Below are positions 50,321 through 55,370 of a stretch of 64,000 nt of DNA, piece by piece. The stretch's first letter is position 1. Each line of letters starts with the position of its first letter. The notes beneath the pieces are model-generated. The model made no database searches. It worked only from the letters and a program-made list of their open reading frames with translations, and had not been told where the DNA came from. The position numbers and the translations under genes are program-made. Source of the stretch: Pseudanabaena sp. PCC 6802 (lineage in GTDB: Bacteria > Cyanobacteriota > Cyanobacteriia > Pseudanabaenales > Pseudanabaenaceae); NCBI RefSeq assembly GCF_000332175.1, contig NZ_KB235914.1:999966-1063965 (forward strand). The letters run 5' to 3'.

Positions 50321-52633
50321 CTACTCGTCAGGGAAACGATCCATATCCAGGTCCGGATCGATCTCAGTCGGTAGAACAACCTGCTCGCCGGGTTCGAGAT
50401 TGGCGGCAGCGTCAATACTGGCTAAAGCTACTAGATCGATTTGCTGGCGATAGTAGTCAACGCTTTTGACCTGGACTTCAATGCGATCGCCCAAACTATA
50501 TTGACGTTCGCTACGGCGACCGATCAGAACTGTTTGCGCCCGTCCGCCCTTGCTCTTGCCATTAGTTTGGGGAAATTCGTACCAGTCGTCTTTGAGCGAA
50601 CTGACATGCACTAGACCTTCAACCAGTAAAGATTCGATCTCGACAAAAAAACCATAGGATTGAACTCCCGTGATAATCCCAAAGAAATTTTGTCCGGTTC
50701 TCGCTTGCATGATCTCGGCTTTGCGCAAACCTTCGAGATCTGTTTTAGCCTTGTGAACCAGGTTGTCTTGCTGGTTGAGCTTTGGCAAGATTAACTCTAG
50801 CTCGGAGACCACTTGACGTTCTCTTTCAGGTGGCAGCACGCTCCAACTAATCTGACCGTGACAGCTAGAGCTATGCAAATCTACGCTCTCTTTGCTGCGA
50901 GTATTGCGACGATCGCGTCCTTCTTGAAACACCAGATGTAGCAGACGTTGAATTAGCAAATCGACATAGCGATGTTGGGGAGCGATCGCGTGCACGTAGG
51001 GAAACTCCGGTGCTAGAGCAAGACCGAAGTGAGAACCAGGCTGCAAACTGTACTCTCCGATCTTTAACAATGACATCAACAGGTATTTCAAGATATCGCA
51101 ACTGCTTTGCCTGTCTACCTGGGTCACCTGTGCTAAAAAGTTTTGGAAATCCTGAGATTGCAGGTGTTCCGGTTCCGCTAAACCGACAGATACGCCCATA
51201 CTCTCGCAAAGCTTGAGCCAATCTGCTACCTTGCTCAATTCCGGCGGTGATTGAGTGCGAAATAGAGCCGGTACGCCCAAAGCTACCAAGTGCGTAGCGA
51301 TCGCCCGATTCGCTAAGATAGACATCTCAGATACCATGCCGTAAATATAATTAGCCTCAGGTACGATTGGCACTCCTAAAATGCCCTCATCAGCTTCCTG
51401 CATAGGTGCATTGGGCAGAGTGATATGGAATGAGCCAAGACGATGTTGCTTGATCGATGTACCCAAATGCACGATATTACCGAGCAGATCGGCTAATTCC
51501 GCTTGCTTCGATTTAGCAGTGCCTTTTTGGGCGCGATCGTCGATAATTTCTTGTGCCTCGGCAAAACTCAATCTGGCATGAGTAGCGATCGCAGACGGGT
51601 AGATCTCAAACTCAGTTAAAACTCCATTACTATCTAGCTCGAACAACACCGACATGGTGAGATGCTCTGGCTGCTGCAGCACGCCAAGATCTGGGAGCAT
51701 GGGGATAACTGAATCGTCTAGGAAAGAGGTTCGCACTCGAAGCCGAGCAGCTTCATCTAAAACAGAGCCAACCGCAATATAGGCCGCATAGTCAGGAATA
51801 TGTACTCCCAGTCGCCAACCACCAGCCTGAGTTGACTCTAACGAAATCGCTGGTGCATTACCGATGGCGACAGTCATATTTTGACGCAGATCGAGCCTTT
51901 TCTTGAGATCGACTTTCCGCACCGCTTTGGGTAGGCTGTTGACCGCAGTCAAGACCTGACTGCTAAACTTGCGAGGCAAGTTATGCTTGCAGCAGACTAA
52001 ATCTACATCAGGCGTAGATTCTGCATCATCGCCCAGCACCTGCAAGATCTTGCCTATGGGCAAGTGACTGCCTAAAGGAAACCTCGTCATCTCAAGATGA
52101 ACCAATTTGTTCAATGCCACGCTTAGATCGGGATATTGTCTATCGGGCGCGAGATCGATCTCGAACAGCAAGCGATCGTCCAATGGTATGGCACGATACC
52201 CAGATTCAAAAGCCTTTACCTTAGCCAGAAGTGTAGGATTAGAACGCTCTACAATCAGTCGCACTTCACCCTCTGGACTGCGACGGCGCATTCCATCCTT
52301 AGTTACTTTCACCAGGACGCGATCGCCATTCCATGCAGTACTCAGCTTACTCTCTCGAATGTAAATATCCCCTGCACCCTCAACATCTTGGATCGCAAAG
52401 CAAAATCCTTTACTAGAACAACGCAATCGCCCCTCTACTAGGCCATCTTCTGCCAGACGGCGATAGCGACCCTTATCTTTTTCTAAGATGCCTACCCTTT
52501 CTAAGGCATCGAGTGCTACCTGGAGTTTGCGTATACTACCGTCATCGCCGATACCTAGTTTTTTTTCGATGACCTTAGGAGCGACAAATTTATCTGAGAG
52601 GCTATCTAGCAGTTGAGAGATCGAAAATTCCAT
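50321..52633 (-). CDS. RNB-family (RNase II/R-like) protein lacking the catalytic aspartate cluster
   Basis: 770 residues: N-terminal winged-helix/cold-shock region (VEGRLRCSSKGFCFAIQDVE), RNB domain (about 235-570) and C-terminal S1 domain (FFGIITGVQSYGFFVEIESL, about 655-735). RNB landmarks such as GWRLGVHIPDYAAYIAVGS and SVIPMLPDLGV are clear. The segment before them, where active enzymes have D-x(5)-D-x-DDA, reads NMTVAIGNAPAISLE at 252-266: all four metal-binding aspartates are absent. RNA binding is likely kept; exonuclease activity is doubtful. Its distance from relatives could also mean a shifted active site. Confidence 0.82.
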   Translation of the reverse strand: MEFSISQLLDSLSDKFVAPKVIEKKLGIGDDGSIRKLQVALDALERVGILEKDKGRYRRLAEDGLVEGRLRCSSKGFCFAIQDVEGAGDIYIRESKLSTAWNGDRVLVKVTKDGMRRRSPEGEVRLIVERSNPTLLAKVKAFESGYRAIPLDDRLLFEIDLAPDRQYPDLSVALNKLVHLEMTRFPLGSHLPIGKILQVLGDDAESTPDVDLVCCKHNLPRKFSSQVLTAVNSLPKAVRKVDLKKRLDLRQNMTVAIGNAPAISLESTQAGGWRLGVHIPDYAAYIAVGSVLDEAARLRVRTSFLDDSVIPMLPDLGVLQQPEHLTMSVLFELDSNGVLTEFEIYPSAIATHARLSFAEAQEIIDDRAQKGTAKSKQAELADLLGNIVHLGTSIKQHRLGSFHITLPNAPMQEADEGILGVPIVPEANYIYGMVSEMSILANRAIATHLVALGVPALFRTQSPPELSKVADWLKLCESMGVSVGLAEPEHLQSQDFQNFLAQVTQVDRQSSCDILKYLLMSLLKIGEYSLQPGSHFGLALAPEFPYVHAIAPQHRYVDLLIQRLLHLVFQEGRDRRNTRSKESVDLHSSSCHGQISWSVLPPERERQVVSELELILPKLNQQDNLVHKAKTDLEGLRKAEIMQARTGQNFFGIITGVQSYGFFVEIESLLVEGLVHVSSLKDDWYEFPQTNGKSKGGRAQTVLIGRRSERQYSLGDRIEVQVKSVDYYRQQIDLVALASIDAAANLEPGEQVVLPTEIDPDLDMDRFPDE

Positions 52634-53230
52634 GAGGTGTAAACTTGAAAGTAAAGTAACAGAACTTGAATGGCTTAATGACTTTAACGAGCTACAAAGT
52701 AATTACATAGTTAAATTACATAGTTACCAGGGATGCAACTCAAATCCCAATCGCTGTGTTTCTAACAGGTAACAACTTATATCCTTGAGAGTGCACAACA
52801 CACACCATGCAGTAGCGATCGAGCTGATATTCAATTCTCAAGCATGCTGAGATTGTTATTACAAACACGCGAGCATACAACATGATATGACGAAAGCGAA
52901 CAAAGAGGTGCCAGATTGCCACAGGAAAGCTTGTGAGGATAGCTCGTGCAAAGATCCCTAGGTGCTCGAGCATTTAAGTCTGGACGGATCTCTATGGTTT
53001 ATGCCCGCTATTACTGCTATTACTCAGGTTGTACCTACTTAAAATCATAATCTAAAGGTTGCAGTGCTAAGTGGCAAACCTTAAACATATCTTTAACTAG
53101 AACCCTACTATCTTAAAAATATTCGGTTCTATAATGTTGATATGACCTTAGCTAACCGTTTGCCTATGCAAAATCTCAGTTGTTTCCTTAGTGTTGTTTC
53201 CTTAGTGTTATCAAGAAATAGGTTTTAAAA
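52634..53230. other. AT-rich spacer
   Basis: About 600 bp between the RNB gene and the small IS-like element upstream of the porin. A 77-codon open frame on the minus strand (52740-52973) is hydrophobic but has no family resemblance and is probably chance. No RNA gene was recognised. Confidence 0.4.
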
Positions 53231-53546
53231 CCCCGTACTTCTAGCACGGCTTTTTAAGGATCTTATGCTACGATACAACCACTCTAAATGCATAAGCAAC
53301 ACCGTAAAATCTAAACCGGGTGGTTTGGAGCGGAAGCAAGCTTAGCAGCTGAGCAGTTGTGAAAGCGTTTGTTAGTCCATCTTTATACCAATGAGTACGG
53401 TAGAGCATACCGGAACTTTCGGACTAGGTTAGAGTAAAGCTTGGGGAGAGGTGACCGCTACTTTTGGTTAGAGCAATCTTAATCAAAGCAATAAGTTGCC
53501 TCCTAGAACCAAGAATCCCAGCGCGTTTGAGCTGGGGAGTGTCAAG
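53231..53546 (+). mobile_element. Small IS200/IS605-like non-autonomous element with guide-RNA-like right end
   Basis: The left part has a hairpin CCGTACTTCTAGCACGG (53233-53249) followed by TTTTTAAGGA and TATGCTACGAT, the arrangement seen ahead of cyanobacterial tnpB genes. The right part, from CTAAACCGGG at about 53312, is a ~230-bp GC-richer stretch ending in AGAATCCCAGC, then GCTGGGGAGTGTCAA, a hairpin (53517-53536) followed by GTCAA. That ending recalls tnpB right ends, where the omega RNA scaffold stops and the flanking DNA acts as guide. There is no transposase or TnpB frame. Structure is seen; family and RNA role are inferred from memory. Confidence 0.5.
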
Positions 53547-53660
53547 CGGTAAGTTAAAGGCCAGATTTTGGGTAAAACCAGAGTTACTTCTATAGACTTA
53601 TTGAAGTAATGTGTTATATATGCTAAAAGTATCTACGGTGTGAGAGTTTGGGTAAAAATT

Positions 53661-55370
53661 ATGTCTAAATTCAGTAAATTATCGCTTAGTTCAGTTTTAT
53701 TTGTTTCAGCAGTCGCAGCATCATCCATGGTGCCAGGTGTAGTTAAAGCGCAAACTGTTGACAATACAGCTACCGTGCCAGCTACAACTGTGCCAGCTCC
53801 TGACTCAACAGTTAATGAGTCCAGCCTGATTCGTTCCATTGGTAAAGATCCAATGGTAAATCGCACGGCTCAGAACGCTGCTCCAGAAACTCAAGCTCAA
53901 AACGTGACCTCCGTGTCTCAGTTGAGCGATGTTAAGCCGACCGACTGGGCATTTACAGCCTTGCAATCTCTGGTAGAGCGCTACGGTTGTATTGCTGGTT
54001 ATCCGGATCGGACCTATCGCGGTCAGAGAGCCATGACCCGCTTCGAGTTTGCTGCTGGTTTGAACGCTTGCTTGGACAAGATCAACGAAATTATCACCGC
54101 TGGTCTAGCTGATAAAGTCAGCAAAGAAGACCTGGCAGCGGTGCAAAAGCTACAAGAAGAATTTGCGGCTGAATTGGCAGCTCTGCGCGGTCGGGTAGAT
54201 GCTTTAGAGTCAAAGACTGCTCAGCTTGAAGCTCAGCAATTTTCTACCACTACCAAGTTAAACGCCACAGCGATTATTGCTCCGTCCTTTGCGACAGATA
54301 GCAACGTCACTCTCAGCGGTCGCGTACGCTTAAACTTCGACACCAGCTTTACCGGTAAGGATTTATTGCGTACTCGCCTGCAAGCTGGTAACGTAACTCG
54401 TTTCGATCGCGTACCTGGTATCCTTTCCTCGACAGTTGCTGGTACGACAGCTACTGCTCGTTTGGGCTTTGATACTAACACCGACAACCAGTTCGAGCTA
54501 GACAAGTTGTTCTATCGTTTCCCGGTTGGCAACCAGGTCACGGCTTTTGTTGGTACCCGAGGTGTGGATTGGGATACCGTATTCGATACAGTTAATCCAT
54601 ATTTCGCTGATAGCGACAACGGCGCAATTTCCAGATTTGGTCGTTACGAGCCATTCATCTTCCGCGCTCCCCAGGGTGCTGGTGCAGCGATTAACTTCAA
54701 GTTCAACGATCAATTCGGTCTGAACCTGGCTTATCTAGCTAACCAACAGTTTGCTGGTAATGCGGTCGGTCAGTCTGGCTTGACCAATGGTGGCTACGGT
54801 GCAGGTGCTCAAATTGTCTTCTCGCCCAACAAAGACTTGAAGATCGGTTTAGCTTACATCCGCAGTTTCGAGCCTGGTTTTGAGATTGGTAGCAATACTG
54901 CCACTCTAGTTGATGTATCGGGTTCTACCGGTAGCGTGAATTCTAGAAGACCATTTGGTGCAGTTGATACCTCTACCGATCGCTATGGCGCTCAGTTAAG
55001 CTGGAAAGTTGCTAAGGGATTTGCCTTTGGTGGCTGGGTAGGCTTTGCCAACATGCGTCAAGAGTCTGGGATTGGTCGTAACAATGCTGATGCCTTTAAC
55101 TGGGCAGTTAGCTTGGCTTTCCCCGACCTGTTCGGTGAAGGCAACGTGGCTGGTATTATCTTCGGTCAGCCACCTAAGCTGACATCCAACTCGATCGTTG
55201 CTCGCAGAGACGATGGCAGCACCACCTATCACTTGGAAGCACTTTACAGATGGAGACTTTCTAAGAATATCTCTATTACTCCGGGTGTATTCTTTATCTT
55301 CAATCCTGAAAACAACAGTGCTAACAACACCATCGTGGTTGGTACTATCCGTACAACCTTCTCCTTCTAA
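53661..55370 (+). CDS. SLH-domain OprB-type major porin
   Basis: 569 residues from ATG 53661. Signal peptide (residues 1-30, ending VVKA), then an S-layer homology domain (about 85-150: VSQLSDVKPTDWAFTALQSL, CIAGYPDRTYRG, MTRFEFAAGLN), a short coiled coil (LAALRGRVDALESKTAQLEA) and a ~350-residue beta-barrel ending in phenylalanine (TIRTTFSF), as outer-membrane proteins do. It probably moves small solutes or inorganic ions across the outer membrane, anchored to peptidoglycan by the SLH part. The long upstream region carries a small IS-like element. Codon use looks favourable for high expression. Confidence 0.92.
   Translation: MSKFSKLSLSSVLFVSAVAASSMVPGVVKAQTVDNTATVPATTVPAPDSTVNESSLIRSIGKDPMVNRTAQNAAPETQAQNVTSVSQLSDVKPTDWAFTALQSLVERYGCIAGYPDRTYRGQRAMTRFEFAAGLNACLDKINEIITAGLADKVSKEDLAAVQKLQEEFAAELAALRGRVDALESKTAQLEAQQFSTTTKLNATAIIAPSFATDSNVTLSGRVRLNFDTSFTGKDLLRTRLQAGNVTRFDRVPGILSSTVAGTTATARLGFDTNTDNQFELDKLFYRFPVGNQVTAFVGTRGVDWDTVFDTVNPYFADSDNGAISRFGRYEPFIFRAPQGAGAAINFKFNDQFGLNLAYLANQQFAGNAVGQSGLTNGGYGAGAQIVFSPNKDLKIGLAYIRSFEPGFEIGSNTATLVDVSGSTGSVNSRRPFGAVDTSTDRYGAQLSWKVAKGFAFGGWVGFANMRQESGIGRNNADAFNWAVSLAFPDLFGEGNVAGIIFGQPPKLTSNSIVARRDDGSTTYHLEALYRWRLSKNISITPGVFFIFNPENNSANNTIVVGTIRTTFSF

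Follow-up and report, generated by a model that had tools for sequence, protein, structure and literature searches.

A window of 64 kb (the whole stretch of DNA that was analyzed, located on contig C5 of the 5.6-Mb host genome, G000, which its TnpB and porin relatives mark as cyanobacterial) carries a 334-bp non-autonomous element of the IS200/IS605 type at 53212-53545 on the + strand. We put the probability at about 0.88 that this is a real PATE-type deletion derivative of an IS200/IS605 transposon, moved by TnpA in trans; a resident TnpB could plausibly make use of its omega RNA. Its source would be an IS1341-like, tnpB-carrying IS200/IS605 transposon from which nearly all of tnpB has been deleted, the retained parts being the left end, a remnant of the tnpB promoter and the complete omega-RNA/right end.

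Extent and anatomy of the element

The features of the element and its immediate flanks are as follows.

53208..53211, +: TTAT target site and transposon-adjacent motif (TAM), read from the empty sites of two sister elements at ten loci
53230..53253, +: left-end hairpin CCCCGTACTTCTAGCACGG, 80-93% identical to other left ends
53264..53291, +: putative remnant of a tnpB promoter/leader, CTTATGCTACGATACA...GCATAAG, resembling the leaders of L041 and L042
53389..53545, +: omega-RNA (reRNA) scaffold with relict TnpB C-terminal codons, recovered by nhmmer, covariance model and alignment
53517..53545, +: terminal right-end hairpin CCCAGC..GCTGGG followed by GAGTGTCAA, conserved in the alignment
53546..53561, +: would-be 16-nt guide GCGGTAAGTTAAAGGC, the flanking DNA directly after TCAA

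The limits of such elements were read from G033, a sister genome of the same family, in which a ~199-bp element composed solely of the left end and the omega RNA occurs at least ten times. TTAT precedes nearly all of these copies, and each has a different right flank.

L232, L233 and L235-L242 (G033), L249 and L251 (G018): ~199-bp elements consisting of a left end plus a complete omega RNA

The flanks of several G033 elements were joined and then sought across the genus. Uninterrupted sites were found for two elements, and at all ten of the loci examined the right flank follows TTAT with nothing between them, indicating that the element extends from C to TCAA, that the target is TTAT and that insertion produces no target duplication. 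These empty sites demonstrate that protein-less omega-RNA elements have transposed and spread as families. TTAT and TCAA are both among the recurrent cleavage sites in a survey of IS605 elements (PMC9956272).

The boundaries of the window copy follow from homology to these sister elements, empty sites having been read for the two G033 elements only. By this homology the window copy begins at C 53212 and ends with TCAA at 53542-53545. The original prediction had placed a ~315-bp element at 53231-53546; its right end proves near-exact, and the start moves out to 53212, since the left tip and the TAM precede the hairpin. The predicted start of the guide, immediately after TCAA at 53546, stands unchanged.

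Most of the left ends examined are likewise directly preceded by TTAT, and 53207-53255 shares 80-93% identity with other left ends, both those of this genome (L002-L005, L022 and L025-L027) and those of relatives. The left hairpin and the right hairpin form near-terminal palindromes homologous to those of IS605/tnpB elements in this genome and in relatives. The left stem contains one A.C mismatch, a position at which the stem is perfect in the other copies. Downstream, the counterparts of CTTATGCTACGATACA...GCATAAG, namely TTGTGCTAGAATACATAGCATAAG and CTATGCTACAATATACAGCATAAG, sit just 5' of tnpB in L041 and L042. Within 53264-53291, TGCTACGAT is a possible extended -10 candidate that may have served as a promoter; a sigma-70 scan returned no match inside the element. 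No relatives were found for the ~110 nt (53278-53388) that separate the leader remnant from the scaffold. A perfect 14-bp tandem repeat (TTGTTTCCTTAGTG, two copies, 53180-53207) abuts the TTAT target on its outer side.

The element encodes no transposase or other protein, as had been proposed, its longest stop-free stretch being 51 codons. A frame for the relict TnpB C-terminus (...STVEHTGTFGLG-stop-SKAWGEVTATFG-stop) is still readable and is interrupted by stops and frameshifts; set against STVGHTGTFARDASNAWGEDTATLAGAIL of L033, the window sequence contains stop codons and five inserted bases.

The omega-RNA scaffold and its state of preservation

Two models identify the right part of the element, both built from right ends of tnpB elements alone, with the window sequence excluded to avoid circularity. 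An nhmmer profile of six tnpB right ends matched 53392-53545 over its full length (E=9.6e-29), and a covariance model of 36 right ends of tnpB elements matched 53389-53546 (about 53545), likewise over the full length, with 119 bits (E=7.9e-32), its sole match in the window. These scores exclude chance. The same segment is 70-76% identical, over ~150 bp and with a constant end point, to the DNA found where tnpB genes of other cyanobacteria end (3'), which is where relatives of a TnpB guide RNA had been expected. Since both ends are homologous to those of tnpB/IS605 elements, the proposal of a TnpB-less IS200/IS605-like element is confirmed. Rfam at gathering thresholds matched nothing in the window, and the folding energy alone is unremarkable (z = -1.26), so the evidence consists of homology and covariation.

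Conservation and pairing were compared across 45 aligned right ends, the window sequence and 44 tnpB-linked relatives. The AATC-hairpin-GAGTGTCAA block is invariant or nearly so throughout this alignment. Of 63 highly conserved columns, 7 are changed in the window sequence, the highest count in the alignment, indicating that its scaffold has in part diverged freely. Among columns invariant in the other 44, only two are changed in the window, and these are the two partners of a single pair, G82-C91, which has become A-U; the adjacent pair C80-G93 reads U-A. In the old TnpB frame, G82A converts a Gly codon to Arg at a first base that is invariant in 44 of 44 other sequences, and so this change probably arose after loss of the protein. 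The two compensated stem changes hint at, and do not prove, retention of the RNA structure after coding function had gone.

Overall, 39 of 47 omega-RNA pairs (83%) are kept in the window and eight are broken. Random substitutions of the same number and kind retained on average 63-69% of pairs and equalled the observed retention in between 0 and 31 of 5000 trials, according to the sequence from which they started; this comparison is biased toward structure because part of the divergence accrued while tnpB was still present.

These data bear directly on the strongest alternative, to which we assign a little under an even chance: that an old IS605 copy lost its tnpB by deletion in place, has been immobile since and makes no functional RNA. 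This reading shares the IS200/IS605 assignment and differs from ours solely on present activity. It draws on the single-copy status of the exact window-type structure in the genome, the largest number of conserved-column changes in the alignment, the mismatched left stem and the middle segment without relatives. Against it stand the excess of retained pairs over the simulated mean and the two compensated stem changes, although part of this may pre-date the loss of tnpB. The window copy, which is probably of some age and in partial decay, may be inert, given its conserved-column departures, its broken pairs and the mismatch in its left hairpin.

The porin locus and the would-be guide

The element lies between two divergent genes.

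50321..52633, -: RNase R/II-like gene, transcribed away from the porin; found by tblastn beside porin orthologs
53661..55370, +: porin with signal peptide, 569 aa; 57 of the 58 searched genomes contain relatives

As the original prediction stated, the element ends about 115 bp before the porin start; the ATG is at 53661 and the two share one orientation. The porin itself, whose best matches within the family are 60-65% identical, shows no indication of anything unusual. The RNase R-porin pair is conserved in five relatives, where tblastn locates the RNase gene beside the porin orthologs (L155, L167, L168, L176 and L179) and the two genes lie 155, 169, 225, 634 and 895 bp apart, as against 1027 bp here. 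The element is absent from this spacer in all five, which identifies it as an insertion and leads us to reject an ordinary conserved porin leader. The rest of the spacer (52634-53225) has no second copy in the genome, and the length of the intergenic region is therefore not explained by another repeat family. A GTAAGTTAAA string common to the guide region and the relatives' porin promoters was considered and set aside: because its distance from the gene varies, chance can account for it.

An insertion in this position might supply or alter transcription of the porin, either because transcripts from the kept tnpB promoter would run on into it or because the element would provide a new 5' leader. 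The shared orientation, the 115-bp distance and the lack of any terminator found on the + strand beyond the element agree with such an effect, which we nevertheless consider improbable: the ~115 bp before the ATG leave space for the porin's own promoter, and the sigma-70 scan drew a blank within the element. Nothing found suggests that the element controls the porin, and its position is most likely incidental.

The original prediction also offered a domesticated guide RNA that could serve a TnpB, or a repressor derived from TnpB, encoded elsewhere. In this reading such a protein, TldR-like if a repressor, would use the RNA to regulate the porin or another gene. The retention of a scaffold whose tnpB is lost, the fall of the guide DNA within the porin promoter region and the precedent of TldR, which functions with guides down to 6 nt (PMC13418256), speak for this idea. 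A genome scan with the 16-nt guide found no second site at 0-1 mismatch and one at 2 mismatches, preceded by TTAC. With up to 3 mismatches allowed, the guide gave 18+19 near matches, its own site included, compared with 25+27 for a reversed control. When the TAM was required as well, 3+2 sites were found at 2-3 mismatches, the own locus among them, compared with 2+4 for the control, and no site other than the own locus had fewer than 3 mismatches; one earlier TAM-plus-guide scan used TTATC, before the empty sites set the TAM to TTAT. A target of seed length (6 nt) is indistinguishable from chance by sequence search. At its own locus the guide sequence is preceded by TCAA rather than TTAT, so the window RNA should not target itself. 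The three resident TnpBs of the matching RNA subfamily all keep the D/E/D residues, and no nuclease-dead TnpB is present among them. With no target above the control level with or without the TAM, a TAM-less own site, intact catalytic residues and no conservation at the porin site in relatives, domestication is very unlikely; of the two readings originally offered, the PATE-type non-autonomous element is the one strongly supported.

Proposed mobility in trans and related systems

The genome contains six Y1 TnpA loci, some of which have left ends of this type beside them, and 17 TnpB loci, a search for TnpB proteins having been suggested with the original prediction. A Y1 TnpA supplied in trans would move the element by acting on its hairpins. 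The covariance model gave 17 matches in the genome, and comparison of their coordinates with the TnpB loci placed 11 beside tnpB and left six TnpB-less, namely the window element and five others. Three of the latter, L002, L003 and L004 (G000:C3:11062, C5:2304438 and C5:3604664), are near-identical short elements distributed over the chromosome and the 47-kb contig C3; they retain relict C-terminal codons, and their source is the TnpB lineage L025-L027.

TnpB with its omega RNA cleaves the donor joint after excision and may thereby aid restoration of the element (PMC8612924), and the 5' end of the omega RNA is processed by TnpB itself (PMC10278001). If the window RNA were made, it could be loaded by a resident TnpB belonging to the same subfamily, which could then cut the excised donor joint (TTAT + guide), with the result that the element would be restored from the sister chromosome. 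L018, L021 and L024 encode TnpBs that have right ends of the window's RNA type and intact RuvC D/E/D residues. Whether they would recognize the window RNA is uncertain, because the nearest right end is located in another genome and those of the resident TnpBs align with the window scaffold at 72-82% identity and about 40 gap columns.

The element appears to share most of the testable features of the PATEs of Haloquadratum walsbyi, notably HqIRS71 (PMC3119063), which have IS605-related ends and near-terminal palindromes, lack terminal inverted repeats and target duplications and are too short to encode a transposase. The absence of duplication at a fixed target was seen in the two G033 sister elements and extends to the window copy by homology only. 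HqIRS71 was already known to resemble the non-coding terminal segment and part of the TnpB C-terminal region (PMC3119063). Unlike those elements, the present one is cyanobacterial, and covariance identifies its right segment as a complete omega-RNA scaffold, a view unavailable in 2011. With ISDra2-type (IS1341-like) IS200/IS605 elements it has in common a right end that forms a guide-RNA scaffold, flanking DNA that forms the guide and a TAM equal to the insertion target (PMC8612924), and its TCAA end recurs in many IS605 elements (PMC9956272). It differs from ISDra2 in lacking tnpA and tnpB, in its TAM (TTAT, not TTGAT) and in being known from sequence alone (PMC8612924). TldR-type systems also keep a TnpB-type guide RNA outside an active transposon, whereas the window element lacks an adjacent TldR protein, a recognizable genomic target and a conserved genetic association.

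What is new here is the finding that a PATE-like element has kept an omega-RNA scaffold in full length and that elements of this kind can spread as families: covariance and empty sites together establish that TnpB-less IS605 elements of cyanobacteria keep intact omega-RNA scaffolds and that some have spread in this form. More speculatively, and with the odds against it, protein-less IS605 elements with a complete omega RNA could be miniature elements maintained by TnpB acting in trans and homing to empty sites. The guide RNA would then act in trans as a selfish signal for retention, with the window element as one case and the ~199-bp family of G033 as the best example. Service by TnpB to non-autonomous elements in trans is now testable and would explain why the guide-RNA part is kept rather than the hairpins alone.

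Two further observations concern related sequences. L031 (G000:C5:2177120-2177356) is a TnpB homolog in which Phe replaces the RuvC-II Glu in the alignment, at the second RuvC position; it adjoins an omega-RNA-type right end, belongs to a different type from the three matching TnpBs and is possibly nuclease-dead, or its active site may be rearranged. Plasmid and phage records yielded partial right- or left-end matches only, most of those in plasmids at transposase genes. Among the phages, Nodularia phage vB_NspS-kac65v151 (MK605242.1:119940-119993) and its relatives carry a similar right end (80% identity over 54 bp) situated inside an annotated hypothetical protein of the cyanophage genome, which perhaps represents a phage-borne TnpB or omega-RNA element.
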